Shown here: positions 29,504 through 36,980 of the stretch, in pieces | How positions within the stretch are numbered: position 1 is the first letter of the stretch | Layout of the letters: each line of letters starts with the position of its first letter | Source: Erythrobacter oryzae | GTDB lineage: Bacteria; Pseudomonadota; Alphaproteobacteria; Sphingomonadales; Sphingomonadaceae | Direction of reading: 5' to 3' | Assembly (NCBI RefSeq): GCF_030271515.1 | Contig: NZ_JASCXI010000001.1 | Location: 1 to 64,000 of the forward strand | DNA: 64,000 bases | The notes under the pieces: model-generated | The model's input: only the letters and a program-made list of their open reading frames with translations | Told to the model about the DNA's origin: nothing | Database searches by the model: none | Position numbers and translations under genes: made by a program

Positions 29504-32410
<2,907 letters not shown>

Positions 32411-32416
32411 TCCAAG

Positions 32417-32452
32417 CCCCCCTCCCGCTTGCGGGAGGGGCTGGGGGTGGGC
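32417..32452. repeat. REP-type palindrome downstream of uvrA
   Basis: CCCCTCCCGC (32419-32428), TT, GCGGGAGGGG (32431-32440), followed by the tail CTGGGGGTGGGC. The same element with the same tail appears twice near 34.8 kb. A second GC-rich element (CCCCCGCGAGGGGAGGGGG) follows to about 32515. Confidence 0.75.
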
Positions 32453-32650
32453 ACGAGGCGAACCATTCTCCCCCGCGAGGGGAGGGGGACCACCCAACGT
32501 GGTGGAGGGGACGGCGACCCTCGAGATCATATTGTGTTGCGGCGCATCAATTTTTCCGCGAAAAACATGGGTCTTGCGCCTTGTCGTACCTCAACATAGA
32601 ACTTCCGATATGACGACTAAAATACTTTTCGTCTTTCAGGGATTTTTAGC

Positions 32651-33760
32651 GTGACCGAACCGGCGACCGAGAGCGAGAACTTTGTTGTCTCTGCAAATGA
32701 CGAGTATGCCATTTCTCTAGAAGAAGGTATTGAGGACGAAAGTCTACTTGAAGACCAGCAAGTCCGGCAGTTTAAAATAACAAGCTATGGTGCAGACTAT
32801 ACCGTTGATTCGCTTGTAAAAAGAATGCGTGGCGGTGCCTTCAAGATTCCTTCATTTCAGCGAAATTTTGTCTGGTCTCAGCGTCACGCATCGCGGTTTA
32901 TTGAGTCGCTGCTTATGGGCCTTCCGATTCCAAGTATTTTCTTGTATAAAGAGTCGGATACAAATCACCATTTGGTAATTGATGGGCAGCAAAGACTTAG
33001 GACTTTGCAGGCTTTTTATGATGGAACTTTTGGAGAAAAGAAGTTCCGCTTAGTCGGCGTTATGGATCCTTGGAATGGTAAAACCTACGAAGATTTAGAT
33101 CCATCGGATCAGCTCAAAATAGACGACTCGATCGTTCACGCGATTATTTTTCGTCAAGATACACCTGAAGACGCTCTCGACAGTATATATTATGTTTTTG
33201 AGAGAATTAATTCTGGAGGGATTCGCCTTTCTCCACAAGAAATCAGGAATTGTATTGCGGAAGGTCCATTTACTCAGATGGTAAAAGAAATTAACCTCCG
33301 CGAGTCTTGGAGAAATTTATTCGGTGGACCACCAAATAAACGTGCAAAAGACGAGGAACTTATAATTCGCTTTTTTGCAATGTTGAGGAATGGTGCTGAT
33401 TATCAAAAGCCTATGGCGAAATTCCTGAATGACAGTGCATCGAGGTATAACAAGCTCAGCCAGCGCGAACTTGCAGGTATGACTGACGTCTTTTGTTCCG
33501 CGTCTGACGCTATATGGGAGGCGCTCGGCCCTGCTGCATTCAGGCCCAATCGACCGTTGAACGCAGCGGTTTTTGATGCCGTTATGCCAGTCGTTGCAAA
33601 AGCGCTATTGCACCGACCTATCTCTGCCGACGAGATTAGAGCTTCGTATGCTGCGCTGTTGGCTGACAAAGAGTTTGTGAGGGTAAGTGAGCGGGCGACT
33701 TCTGACGAGGAAGCGGTTCGCACGAGGCAGAAACTGGCAGCTGAGAAATTTGGGGTTTAG
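32651..33760 (+). CDS. DUF262 domain protein (ParB-like/GmrS-type)
   Basis: 369 residues. DUF262 motifs: KIPSFQRNFVWSQ near residue 75 and LVIDGQQRLRTLQAF near residue 112, matching the DGQQR loop of GmrSD-type restriction proteins; FERINSGGIRLSPQEIRN follows. DUF262 has a ParB/sulfiredoxin-like fold that binds and hydrolyses NTP. The HNH (DUF1524) nuclease half common in GmrSD is not present; the C-terminal third is helical. GTG start with CAGGG about 10 bases upstream. Codons are A/T-rich compared with uvrA. The HEPN-like gene follows 6 bases later, so an operon is clear. Confidence 0.87.
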   Translation: MTEPATESENFVVSANDEYAISLEEGIEDESLLEDQQVRQFKITSYGADYTVDSLVKRMRGGAFKIPSFQRNFVWSQRHASRFIESLLMGLPIPSIFLYKESDTNHHLVIDGQQRLRTLQAFYDGTFGEKKFRLVGVMDPWNGKTYEDLDPSDQLKIDDSIVHAIIFRQDTPEDALDSIYYVFERINSGGIRLSPQEIRNCIAEGPFTQMVKEINLRESWRNLFGGPPNKRAKDEELIIRFFAMLRNGADYQKPMAKFLNDSASRYNKLSQRELAGMTDVFCSASDAIWEALGPAAFRPNRPLNAAVFDAVMPVVAKALLHRPISADEIRASYAALLADKEFVRVSERATSDEEAVRTRQKLAAEKFGV

Positions 33761-33766
33761 GGAAAG

Positions 33767-34231
33767 ATGCGGCTTTCGATCGATAGTCGGGAGTTAAGTC
33801 TAGGAAATTTCATCACCCGATGTTCGGGTAATGAAATTCCAGAAGACGTTAGAGCTGCTATGAGAGTGCATAGTGTGGTTCAGTTATGTGGATACATTGA
33901 GCGTTCTATGGAAGTCATTGTTCTAACTAGGATCGAAAAGAGAGCGCACCCCAGGCTGATTGACTTCGTTAAATCTTACTTCAAGAAGGGCACAAATTTT
34001 CGATGCTCTGTAATAAAGAGCTTTCTTGAAAGATTTGACACAAGGTGGGCTAGAAATTTTCAAGACTTCATGGATGCCAATGATGATGTGGTTGAGCTAG
34101 TTAATTCAGCCTACTCTCTCCGAAATAGGGCAGCCCATGGGGATGCCATCCAGCTATCGGACAGAAGGTTGATCGAGCTATTTGATGGCGCCAAACGTGC
34201 GGTGCAGGGGATTATCGACGCGACGGCGTGA
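33767..34231 (+). CDS. HEPN-domain RNase-like protein
   Basis: 154 residues. Helical protein with RNRAAHG near residue 125, which fits the R-x4-H catalytic motif of HEPN ribonucleases; the preceding helix (DDVVELVNSAYSLRN) and the early IERSMEVIVLTRIEKRAHP fit RiboL-PSP/MAE_28990-type HEPN proteins. GGAAAG lies directly before the ATG. Together with the DUF262 gene it would make a sensor/effector pair: HEPN would cut RNA when released or activated. Low GC and foreign codon use. The family assignment rests on motif and neighbourhood. Confidence 0.72.
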   Translation: MRLSIDSRELSLGNFITRCSGNEIPEDVRAAMRVHSVVQLCGYIERSMEVIVLTRIEKRAHPRLIDFVKSYFKKGTNFRCSVIKSFLERFDTRWARNFQDFMDANDDVVELVNSAYSLRNRAAHGDAIQLSDRRLIELFDGAKRAVQGIIDATA

Positions 34232-34468
34232 CGCATGAGTTTGTCAGCCCTATAACTCCCTCCTTTCCTACACCCCCACTCCAAGCATACCCTCCCACCC
34301 AAGCGTCGGCACTGTGCATCTCGCTCCCGCCTTGCCCTTCGCCCCGCCAGCCCCTCGGCTTGTCCGTTTGAGGGGGAGGGCAGGGGCCTCGGGCGCTCTG
34401 CGCGGGGGATAGCCGGCAGGCCCGGCGCTCTCGCGGCCATTCCGCCGCTTGCTGGGAGCCTCTTGCTT

Positions 34469-34699
34469 ATGGACCGCATCAATCAGGCAGCCTTCGCTCC
34501 GCCCTCCTATGACAACACGCGCAAGCTGCCGTGCGGGCCGTCGGTCATGTTCGATCCCGGCGAGCGGGCGTTTGTGGCGGAGTGGCTCGGGCATCTGGCG
34601 GCGGGGCGGGTCGGGGGGAATCCTCCGATGAGCGACGCGCGCAAGGCCGAGATCCTGGCCAATGAGCGGGTGCTCAGGGGGGCGCGCTGGCGGGGGTGA
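34469..34699 (+). CDS. Small hypothetical protein, 76 aa
   Basis: 76 residues from MDRINQAAFAPPSYDNTRKL. GGGAG lies 10 bases before the ATG. Arg/Gly-rich C-terminus (ANERVLRGARWRG). GC returns to the genomic norm. No known family; its position ahead of a terminase-like gene suggests a shared mobile origin. Confidence 0.4.
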   Translation: MDRINQAAFAPPSYDNTRKLPCGPSVMFDPGERAFVAEWLGHLAAGRVGGNPPMSDARKAEILANERVLRGARWRG

Positions 34700-35013
34700 G
34701 GGTTTTTCGCCCCTTCCGCAGGCAGGAGGGGAGCGAGGCTTACCGGCTTGCCGGTTAGCCGCAGCGGGGTGGGCCTTCCGGCCCAGCGCTGCGCGCGCCC
34801 ACCCCCGACCCCTCCCGCAAGCGGGAGGGGAGTATCAGCGCCAACCAGTCCCCCTCCCGCTGCGGGAGGGGCTAGGGGTGGGCCTGTTCGGCGGTAACTG
34901 TTCGGATCAGCCTCGCGTGCCCCTCCACCTGTTGGACTTTTATCATTTTCCTACAGCTATTTGCCTCTGATAGCCTCCGTCACTCCTGACATTCAGCATC
35001 GGAGGCCCACCCC
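34700..35013. repeat. REP doublet region
   Basis: Two copies of the REP palindrome face each other. Copy 1: CCCCTCCCGC-AA-GCGGGAGGGG at 34809-34830 with its tail on the left (CCCACCCCCGA). Copy 2: CCCCTCCCGC-T-GCGGGAGGGG at 34851-34871 with CTAGGGGTGGGC on the right. A degenerate third element lies at about 34710-34790. No gene in this 314-base gap. Confidence 0.75.
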
Positions 35014-35535
35014 ATGTCCGCACCCGCCACGTCCGCGCCGTCCACCCACATCGTCGATCCCGCCACGCTCGTGCCCGATGTCGCGCCCGAGGCGCAGGCG
35101 AAGTTTGTCGAGGTGCTGGCGCAGTGGGGCAATGTGCGGGCGGCGGCGGCGCAGGCGGGGGTGAGCCGGGGGCATCTCTACCGGATGCGGCGCGCGAGCC
35201 CCGAATTCCGGCGGATGTGGGATGCCGCGCTGGTGCTGGCCCGGCCGCAGGTCGAAGAGGTGCTCGCCGACCGGGCGCTGAATGGCGTCCCCGAGGTGGT
35301 CTTCTATCATGGCGAGGAGATCGCCACGCGCACCCGCTATGACTCGCGGCTGCTGCTCGCGCATCTCGGGCGGCTCGACCGGGTGGAGGACACGCAGGGC
35401 GTGCGCGTGGCGGTGCGCGATTTCGACGAGCGGGTCGAGGCGCTGCGGACGGGCGGCGTGACGCTCGAATGGGAGGGCGAGGCGGAAGAAGAGGCGTCGG
35501 AGGAGGCGTCGGAGGAGGCTGGGCAGGAGGGCTGA
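35014..35535 (+). CDS. Terminase small subunit-like / helix-turn-helix protein
   Basis: 173 residues. The helix-turn-helix NVRAAAAQAGVSRGHLYRMRR at about residues 40-60 is followed by SPEFRRMWDAAL, ADRALNGVPEVVFYHGEE and YDSRLLLAHLGRL. This matches phage small-terminase-like proteins that bind packaging sites (AAxxAGVSRxTxYRxR...F...WxxAL). The C-terminus is an acidic EEEASEEASEEAGQEG run. GGAGG lies 8 bases before the ATG. No large terminase, portal or capsid gene is nearby, so it is a remnant or an independent DNA-binding gene. Confidence 0.65.
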   Translation: MSAPATSAPSTHIVDPATLVPDVAPEAQAKFVEVLAQWGNVRAAAAQAGVSRGHLYRMRRASPEFRRMWDAALVLARPQVEEVLADRALNGVPEVVFYHGEEIATRTRYDSRLLLAHLGRLDRVEDTQGVRVAVRDFDERVEALRTGGVTLEWEGEAEEEASEEASEEAGQEG

Positions 35536-35569
35536 CGGGGGGCGCGGTTTTCCGGCCCTGGACAGTGTC

Positions 35570-36980
35570 TCATGTGTCTCCAACAGCCGCGCCCGGAGGC
35601 GCGCGGCGGCGCTCCCACAGAGCCAGCGCGGCGAAGGTGAGCGTGCCGCTCGCCAGCATCCACAGGAAGGCGCCGGGGAGCCCGAGGACCCAGTCGAGCA
35701 GCACCAGCGCGGCCATCTGCACCACCACCGCGGCGAGCGCGGCGTGGCGTGCGCGTGACCCGGCGAGCCCGGCGATGATGGGCACCGCGAGCACCGCGCC
35801 GATCGCGCCGGCATCGAGCACGAGCTCGCGCAGGGTCTCGCCCGTGAGCGCCAGCCCCGCGGCGAGCGCGGCAGCGGCGACGGTGGCGGTGCGGGCGGCG
35901 CGCAGCAGCTGGCGGTCCGATGCGGCGGGGTTGAGGCGGCGGTACCCGCTCTCGGTGATGACCGCCGAGGCCGCGAGCAGCGCGGAGTCGACCGAGGAGA
36001 GGATCGCCGAGACGAGCGCTCCGGTGAAGACGATCAGCAGCCAGCCGGGGAAGAGCGCCTTGGCGAGGGAGGGGAGGAAGGCCTCGCCCTCACCGAGCGG
36101 CAGGCTGAGCTGGGGGGCGAAGAGGCCGAAGGCGACGGGGACGAGGCCCGCGGCAAGGTAGACCCCGGCGCCCAGCAGCGCGCCGGTGCGGGCGGCCTCG
36201 GGGGTGCGGGCGGCCAGCGTGCGCGAGATGGCCTCCTGGCTCACCATGGTGCCGATGATGGGGATGAGCCAGAGCTCGGCGGTGTCGGCCCAGCTCTCGC
36301 CGGGCGGGGCGGCGGGGCTGAGCGCGGCGGGGGGGAGGGCGGCCCACATGGCGGCGGGGCCTCCCGCGGCGACGGTCATGAGGGCGAAGAGGATGGCGAT
36401 GGCGACGAGGATGACGATGCCCTGGAGGATGTCGGTGATGACGTCACCCGCAAGGCCGCCGAACAGGGTGTAGGTCATCACCAGCAGCGTCGCGCCGAGG
36501 AGCGCGGGGACGAAGCCGATGCCCGACGCCGTGTCGATGATGGCGGCGAAGGCGAAGAGCTGGGCGGCGGACCAGGTGGTGGCGGAGAGCGCGATGACGG
36601 CGGCGGCAAGGCCCTCGGTCGCTCCGCCGAAGCGGTCGCGCAGGAAGTCGGCTAGGGTGATGAAGCCTCCGCTGCGCAGGCGGTGGGCGAAGAACAGCGC
36701 CACCGCGACGAGGCCGGCGGCATAGGCCAGGGGCTCGGCCCGGGCTCCGGCGAGGCCCTGCGCGGCGACCTCGGAGGAGGTGGCGATCAGGCTTTCGGCG
36801 GCGAACCAGGTGGCGAAGATCGACATGCCCACCGCGCCCGCCGAGAGGCTTCGCCCGGCGACGAGGTAGTCGGTGTCGGACCGCGCCCCGCGCCCGACCC
36901 ATACGGCGAGCGCGATCTGGAGTGCGACATAGGCGAGGATGAGAACGAGTGTGATGGCGCTGCCCCCTTGCTGCCGCCAT
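35570..36980 (-). CDS. Sodium:solute symporter family protein, apparent frameshift near N-terminus
   Basis: About 460-470 residues if intact. SSS signatures: DYLVAGRSLSAGAVGMSIFA and TWFAAES in the first two segments, TYTLFGGLAGDVITDILQGIVIL, and GALVSAILSSVDSALLAASA. About 12 membrane segments. The frame for the first helix (AITLVLILAYVALQIALAV) is open but has no ATG, GTG or TTG before an in-frame TAA at 36998-37000. The natural ATG (at 36980) is one base out of register; a run of five G on the coding strand (36963-36967) lies between. One G fewer gives an intact MAARGSAITLVLIL start. It is either a sequencing error, a true null, or slippage. The longest frame with a standard start begins at 36832. 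Confidence 0.75.

Follow-up and report, generated by a model that had tools for sequence, protein, structure and literature searches.

What is the role of a small, low-GC pair of genes behind uvrA in Erythrobacter oryzae, in which a DUF262 protein with no nuclease half of its own is closely followed by a HEPN protein, and does this pair belong to a known system? The window in which it lies is a stretch of 64,000 nucleotides (contig NZ_JASCXI010000001.1, positions 1 to 64,000). The pair probably forms a PD-T4-2-like anti-phage module of two genes, in which the DUF262 protein would act as sensor and switch and the HEPN protein would cut RNA. The two genes and their motifs are as follows.

32651..33760, + strand: short DUF262 protein (GmrSD_N, ParB/sulfiredoxin-like), 369 aa, proposed sensor or switch; matched by PF03235 and PADLOC models
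32858..32863, + strand: QR motif, DUF262 residues 70-71; identical in 74/74 proteins, the window's included
32981..32995, + strand: DGQQR motif, DUF262 residues 111-115; D, G, second Q and R identical in 74/74
33197..33211, + strand: FxxxN motif (FERIN), DUF262 residues 183-187; F in 73/74, N in 74/74
33767..34231, + strand: HEPN protein, 154 aa, PF18735 family, proposed RNase effector; matched by PF18735, weakly by PD-T4-2_B
34121..34138, + strand: R-x4-H motif RNRAAH, HEPN residues 119-124; H in 85/85 rows, R in 80/85

The two genes and their proteins

The first open reading frame (32651-33760) begins with GTG and encodes a protein whose residues 54-201 match the Pfam family PF03235, GmrSD_N (E 2.1e-32). 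The best solved structure found by profile is 7p9k (E 2.7e-10), which is presumably BrxU. No other Pfam family matches the protein at E up to 1, and because PF03235 is the sole family at that threshold, the HNH or DUF1524 half is considered to be missing. A preliminary description made from the DNA letters alone had claimed as much, together with intact FQR and DGQQR motifs, and these claims are borne out, with FQR at residues 69-71. Residues Q70, R71, D111, G112, Q114, R115 and N187 are invariant in all 74 DUF262 proteins of the motif set, which consists of the window's protein and 73 census relatives (census of the best 80 of 577 confirmed candidates). DGQQR is described as the NTP-binding pocket in GmrS and SspE (PMC10952713), and the name of the FxxxN motif follows PMC12137116. 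Near the C-terminus, beyond the Pfam-matched domain, T350 (33698-33700) is conserved in 70/74 proteins and R359 (33725-33727) in 74/74; these two residues perhaps contribute to a partner interface.

The second open reading frame (33767-34231) begins with ATG on the same strand, with 6 bases between the DUF262 stop and its own start, as the preliminary description had it. Its product matches PF18735, HEPN_RiboL-PSP (E 1.1e-11, 45.4 bits against a Pfam cut-off of 28.4). R-x4-H is the catalytic pair of HEPN RNases, and the motif RNRAAH agrees both with the earlier claim and with the R-x4-6-H pattern by which such RNases are recognized; the protein is thus a predicted RNase. In an alignment of 85 rows, the window's HEPN and 84 relatives, H124 is invariant (85/85), while R119 occurs in 80 rows and is replaced by K in 4 and G in 1. 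E45 (33899-33901), which is kept in 83/85 rows, may be part of the active site or of a dimer face. The conservation of the motif residues suggests that both DUF262 and HEPN have been retained as working proteins.

Relatives of the HEPN protein in the PDB are limited to weak matches to CRISPR-associated chains, at E 0.011 or worse. A protein search with HEPN alone returned 15 proteins, including the window's own, because shared exact words were required; a profile search over the census loci reached further. The window's HEPN family is itself the Ribo L-PSP-HEPN family of the 2013 survey by Anantharaman et al., where it appears as an entry in a computational-survey table with the remark ‘operon with ParB’ (PMC3710099).

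Comparison with nuclease-bearing DUF262 systems

GmrSD, BrxU and SspE have a DUF262 domain with the same QR, DGQQR and FxxxN motifs, but they carry their own DUF1524 nuclease half, whereas the window has a separate HEPN gene instead. A GmrSD system comprises DUF262 together with DUF1524/HNH, in one or two proteins; in the window PF03235 stands by itself and the partner is HEPN. Nuclease-less DUF262 proteins have been described alongside nuclease-bearing proteins, both in GrwAB, where the second protein is also of the DUF262 family (PMC12137116), and in the two-gene GmrSD of ECOR17 (PMC12373910). A term search of the 2015 GmrSD survey (PMC4619093) found no mention of HEPN in the text searched.

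These systems bear on the idea that the pair works in a manner like type IV restriction, with DUF262 nicking or blocking modified phage DNA and HEPN serving as a structural protein or cleaning up phage RNA. Nicking of DNA has been attributed to ParB/sulfiredoxin proteins (PMC12839542), and GrwAB, with its two DUF262 proteins, is directed against modified phages (PMC12137116), both of which favor the idea. However, cutting by GmrSD, BrxU and GrwA is assigned to the DUF1524 half, and that half is missing here. Moreover, HEPN seems to be kept as an enzyme, since its H is invariant in 85/85 rows. Such a mode of action is highly improbable, and a module in which HEPN is the RNA-cutting component is preferred.

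A further comparison is offered by ptuXYZ, which as described in PMC11980606 also combines, within one operon, a short DUF262 protein and a protein with an RNase fold. It differs in having a BECR-fold RNase and a PtuA-like ATPase between the two, and thus three genes.

Conservation of the pair

A lack of conservation would have counted against the preliminary description, but the pair is conserved in other genomes. HEPN lies directly downstream of DUF262 in 75/80 named genome loci, a figure that describes close relatives, since 577 candidates were confirmed and the best 80 of them make up this set. Seventy-three of the 75 are full-length by profile, one has a short open frame (L080) and one was recognized by eye (L123); the loci without HEPN are L101, where the contig ends, L085, L105, L111 and L134. 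According to record titles, the HEPN-paired loci of this set of the best 80 of 577 belong to Pseudomonadota, Bacteroidota, Acidobacteria, Planctomycetes, Chloroflexi, Cyanobacteria, Actinobacteria and Spirochaetia, as well as to several candidate phyla and one Methanosarcinales archaeon.

The DUF262 protein also matches 272 plasmid records. Ten of these, picked for organism diversity and spanning four phyla, were read (E. coli (two), Phaeobacter, Hymenobacter, Kocuria, Arthrobacter, Rhodococcus, Exiguobacterium, Klebsiella and Bradyrhizobium), and the next gene is HEPN in 10/10, with PF18735 over its cut-off in all 10.

The commonest layout in the census (best 80 of 577) is a 4-base overlap between DUF262 and HEPN, found in 36/74 pairs with the window's pair counted, and these overlaps suggest translational coupling. 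In addition, the two proteins diverge together: for 74 pairs (the window's and 73 from the best 80 of 577), DUF262 and HEPN distances give a Mantel r of 0.816, compared to 0.139 for the best of 2000 permutations. A third system gene was not found, in that no Pfam or PADLOC family occurs in more than 2/95 flanking proteins; these were predicted with a crude ORF caller at 50 of the 80 loci (best 80 of 577) and include a few methylases. Because no family recurs among these 95 proteins, the defence-island company of the genome copies is weak. Plasmid copies from Hymenobacter (L050), Rhodococcus (L053) and Phaeobacter (L049) adjoin integrase genes, or restriction and methylase genes, and such company is less clear for genome copies.

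This tight spacing, the plasmid carriage, the lack of a recurring third gene, the small toxin-like HEPN protein and the antitoxin-first order would all suit a plain toxin-antitoxin pair, in which a constitutively active RNase toxin, HEPN, is simply bound and neutralized by DUF262, so that the pair maintains mobile DNA and any role in defence is secondary or absent. A passive antitoxin would have no need of the NTP-pocket motifs, however, and these are kept in 74/74 proteins (the window's and 73 from the best 80 of 577); for an antitoxin, a protein of 369 aa is also large. PD-T4-2, a relative, acts against phages and does not appear among the toxin-antitoxin-like systems named in PMC9519451. 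Moreover, L123 combines a DUF262 frame interrupted near its start with an intact HEPN, which argues against strong toxicity of free HEPN unless the break is an assembly error. A plain toxin-antitoxin role is therefore judged unlikely, and an anti-phage module with a DUF262 sensor is favored. At another locus, L080, HEPN is the shortened partner, with 96 aa open.

Partners of short and long DUF262 proteins

A PF03235 search of 190 class genomes gave 64 places, of which 40 were fetched as 20 short and 20 long DUF262 loci; the split was made by open-frame length, and “long” denotes a length class rather than the presence of a nuclease half. HEPN lies downstream in 6/20 short loci compared to 0/20 long loci (one-sided Fisher p 0.010), which supports the earlier proposal that HEPN replaces the missing nuclease as the likely effector. 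The six short loci are L177, L178, L180, L183, L187 and L190. The HEPN of L190 is weak and below the Pfam cut-off, and those of L183 and L187, weak to the HEPN profile built here (0.0009 and 0.005), were counted by the PADLOC PD-T4-2_B model. Among the long loci, L204 ends just behind the gene, and the DUF262 frame of L209 was not found by the profile built here.

HEPN is absent at 14/20 short loci in this unbiased set, three of which (L175, L176 and L179) stop before any downstream gene is visible; a short DUF262 alone therefore does not imply a HEPN partner. Other partners include the Menshen ATPase at L182 and some proteins without a Pfam match. Individual short DUF262 genes are also followed by an EcoRI-type adenine methylase (L188:1991-2998), an AAA ATPase (L192:1986-2909) and a protein kinase (L277:673-1554, - strand). 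Short DUF262 proteins thus have HEPN among several partners, and in the branch to which the window belongs HEPN is the usual one.

Relation to PD-T4-2 and Menshen

PD-T4-2 of E. coli ECOR65 was reported by Vassallo et al. in 2022 from a selection with T4; it protects K-12 against T4, and ECOR65 shows higher T4 plaquing once the system is deleted (PMC9519451). A review gives its components as DUF262 and a PF18735 HEPN (PMC10952713), the same two genes in the same order as in the window; the comparison made here is with PADLOC models rather than with the ECOR65 sequence. The window's DUF262 matches PD-T4-2_A at E 2e-49 (residues 61-367 against profile positions 49-361 of 363), and a PF18735 HEPN lies directly downstream after a gap of 6 bases, which is the PD-T4-2 layout. 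The window's HEPN differs in falling below the PD-T4-2_B model, with a best E of 0.0056 (14.7 bits), and the window's genome has no match to that model at 1e-5.

The PD-T4-2_B model has matches in 2/240 class genomes (8e-50 and 8e-44), both directly behind a short DUF262, at L183 and L187. Compared with the HEPN of L183, which is of the PD-T4-2_B type, the family profile of the window's HEPN gives a probability of 28% (E 6e-4), and the alignment centers on a common CG-Y/W-IE together with R-x4-H.

The best PADLOC match of the window's DUF262 is NsnA of Menshen (NsnABC), at E 1.2e-71 and 240 bits over most of its length. In Menshen, DUF262 has been suggested to regulate a partner nuclease through NTPase activity (PMC10952713). 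The first gene of Menshen is likewise a short DUF262, but its second gene encodes the AAA ATPase NsnB. The strong NsnA match would be expected if the pair were a degraded Menshen that lost nsnB and nsnC and came to lie beside an unrelated HEPN gene. A census with the NsnA model over 398 phylum genomes found 62 places in 51 genomes, of which 55 were fetched; it excluded the window, L177, three places with an in-frame stop and two pieces of one broken gene. Where NsnA scores 324-480 bits, NsnB follows in 21/26 loci and HEPN in 0/26. Below 260 bits, a range that includes the window (240 bits), HEPN follows in 23/29, with two of these 23 calls (L267 and L276) being weak matches to the HEPN profile built here alone. 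Because HEPN rather than NsnB follows most of the loci below 260 bits, the best match to NsnA does not make the window's pair a Menshen system. The NsnB model has no match in the window's genome at 1e-40, and the gene after the window's DUF262 is HEPN. The low-scoring loci without HEPN are L275, L277 (the kinase locus), L278, L279, L280 and L281; L280 consists of a DUF262 piece and an NsnB-like piece. At L218, a Menshen-type DUF262 is split in two pieces.

A tree of DUF262 proteins points in the same direction. It includes about half of the census HEPN rows and 11/20 long rows, omits L080, L084, L101, L123, L218 and L280, and is midpoint rooted because the long DUF262 proteins formed no clade of their own. 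The window, L183 and L187 fall in a clade of 61/130 tips (support 0.82) with zero Menshen members. The Menshen clade has 26 tips, 22 labelled NsnB and 4 with an unknown partner, and with a support of 0.998 it does not include the window. A clade of 57 (support 0.95) unites Menshen with further DUF262 proteins that are paired with HEPN. Pairing with HEPN therefore extends beyond the window's clade, and it may predate Menshen. Together, the tree and the partner census contradict a Menshen remnant, which retains only a negligible probability.

By its layout, its first gene and its place in the tree, the module appears to be a diverged member of the PD-T4-2 kind. It is named PD-T4-2-like rather than PD-T4-2 because the second gene falls below the PD-T4-2_B model. 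The preliminary reading as a candidate RNA-targeting defence or toxin module finds partial support; it did not mention that this kind of module is already known, and the window's pair is a further member of it. Among the literature matches listed, no paper deals with the window's clade or its partner census.

Proposed mechanism and wider significance

In the proposed mechanism, the DUF262 protein would bind NTP and stay quiet until it senses an invader, probably through phage DNA or a modification of that DNA. It would then release or activate HEPN, which would cut RNA through R119 and H124 and thereby stop the infection or the infected cell. NTP use is proposed by analogy with GmrS, BrxU and SspE, and a DNA trigger by analogy with GmrSD, BrxU and SspE. 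RNA is the expected target because the protein belongs to the HEPN family. Phage protection by the window's copy is inferred.

More tentatively, and with some doubt, short DUF262 proteins could be regarded as a general sensing platform of type IV restriction origin that operates with no DNA nuclease of its own and to which HEPN or ATPase outputs are attached. If this were true, the HEPN branches, namely the window's clade and PD-T4-2, would turn recognition of invading DNA into destruction of RNA, while the Menshen branch would turn it into an ATPase-based response. The window's clade, with members in many phyla, would then be a largely uncatalogued family of DNA-sensing, RNA-cutting immune systems.

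Judging by its weak PD-T4-2_B score, the window's HEPN would probably escape recognition as a PD-T4-2 component in PADLOC-DB version 2.0.0, and for this reason counts of the family are probably too low. As a small, widespread and apparently complete two-gene system, the pair lends itself to studying the wiring from DUF262 to RNase. Since related short DUF262 proteins carry either HEPN or the Menshen ATPase, partner-swap experiments are possible.

Composition, genomic site and probable origin

The deviating GC content and codon use noted in the preliminary description are confirmed. GC is 0.457 in the module region compared to a mean of 0.682 (sd 0.030) elsewhere in the 64 kb, and the lowest value among 1186 other, overlapping segments of module length is 0.584. 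GC3 is 0.43 and 0.46 in the two module genes compared to 0.91 in uvrA, and host-like GC resumes from about 34300. The genome contains a single copy each of DUF262 and HEPN. Among same-genus genomes, DUF262 has a partial match in 5/36 (best E 4e-11, residues 37-210) and a full-length match in 0/36; in a wider class draw, 8/385 genomes, including the window's own, have a match at 1e-30. From its foreign composition and the lack of a full-length match in the 36 same-genus genomes, the module looks imported by horizontal transfer.

In a search with the DUF262 protein, relatives were present in 31 of 50,697 phage records, and one of these covers at least 80% of the query, which shows phage carriage for the wider DUF262 family rather than for the window's copy. 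A virus origin of the pair was considered and rejected, as HEPN relatives in viral contigs were sought in a close-relative scan and none was confirmed. No tRNA was found across the whole window, no Rfam RNA in 31000-36000 and no sigma-70-like promoter in 32380-34500, and terminator-like sites are at chance level.

The end of uvrA is present in 28/31 genomes, the window's own included, and the site beside it is variable among the 11 same-genus stretches compared. In one genome (G003), the uvrA-side match stops 334 bp short of sequence that matches window position 35072, an interval of 2.6 kb in the window; because of this difference, G003 looks like a site without the module block. Between uvrA and the next conserved piece there is about 1.5 kb of other DNA in G010 and about 2.5 kb in G012, G016 and G018, and in several of the 11 stretches the right side has no match. 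The module is bordered by palindromic repeats.

32419..32452, no strand: intergenic palindromic repeat on the left side of the module; 82% identical to its direct copy at 34850-34883
34794..34883, no strand: the palindromic repeat twice more, on the right side of the module

Recombination at these repeats may have taken place. The repeat core CCTCCCGC-GCGGGAGG has 63 copies in the genome and 0 in a backward control. Within the window this core is limited to three copies, which surround the module, at 32421-32438, 34811-34828 and 34853-34869.
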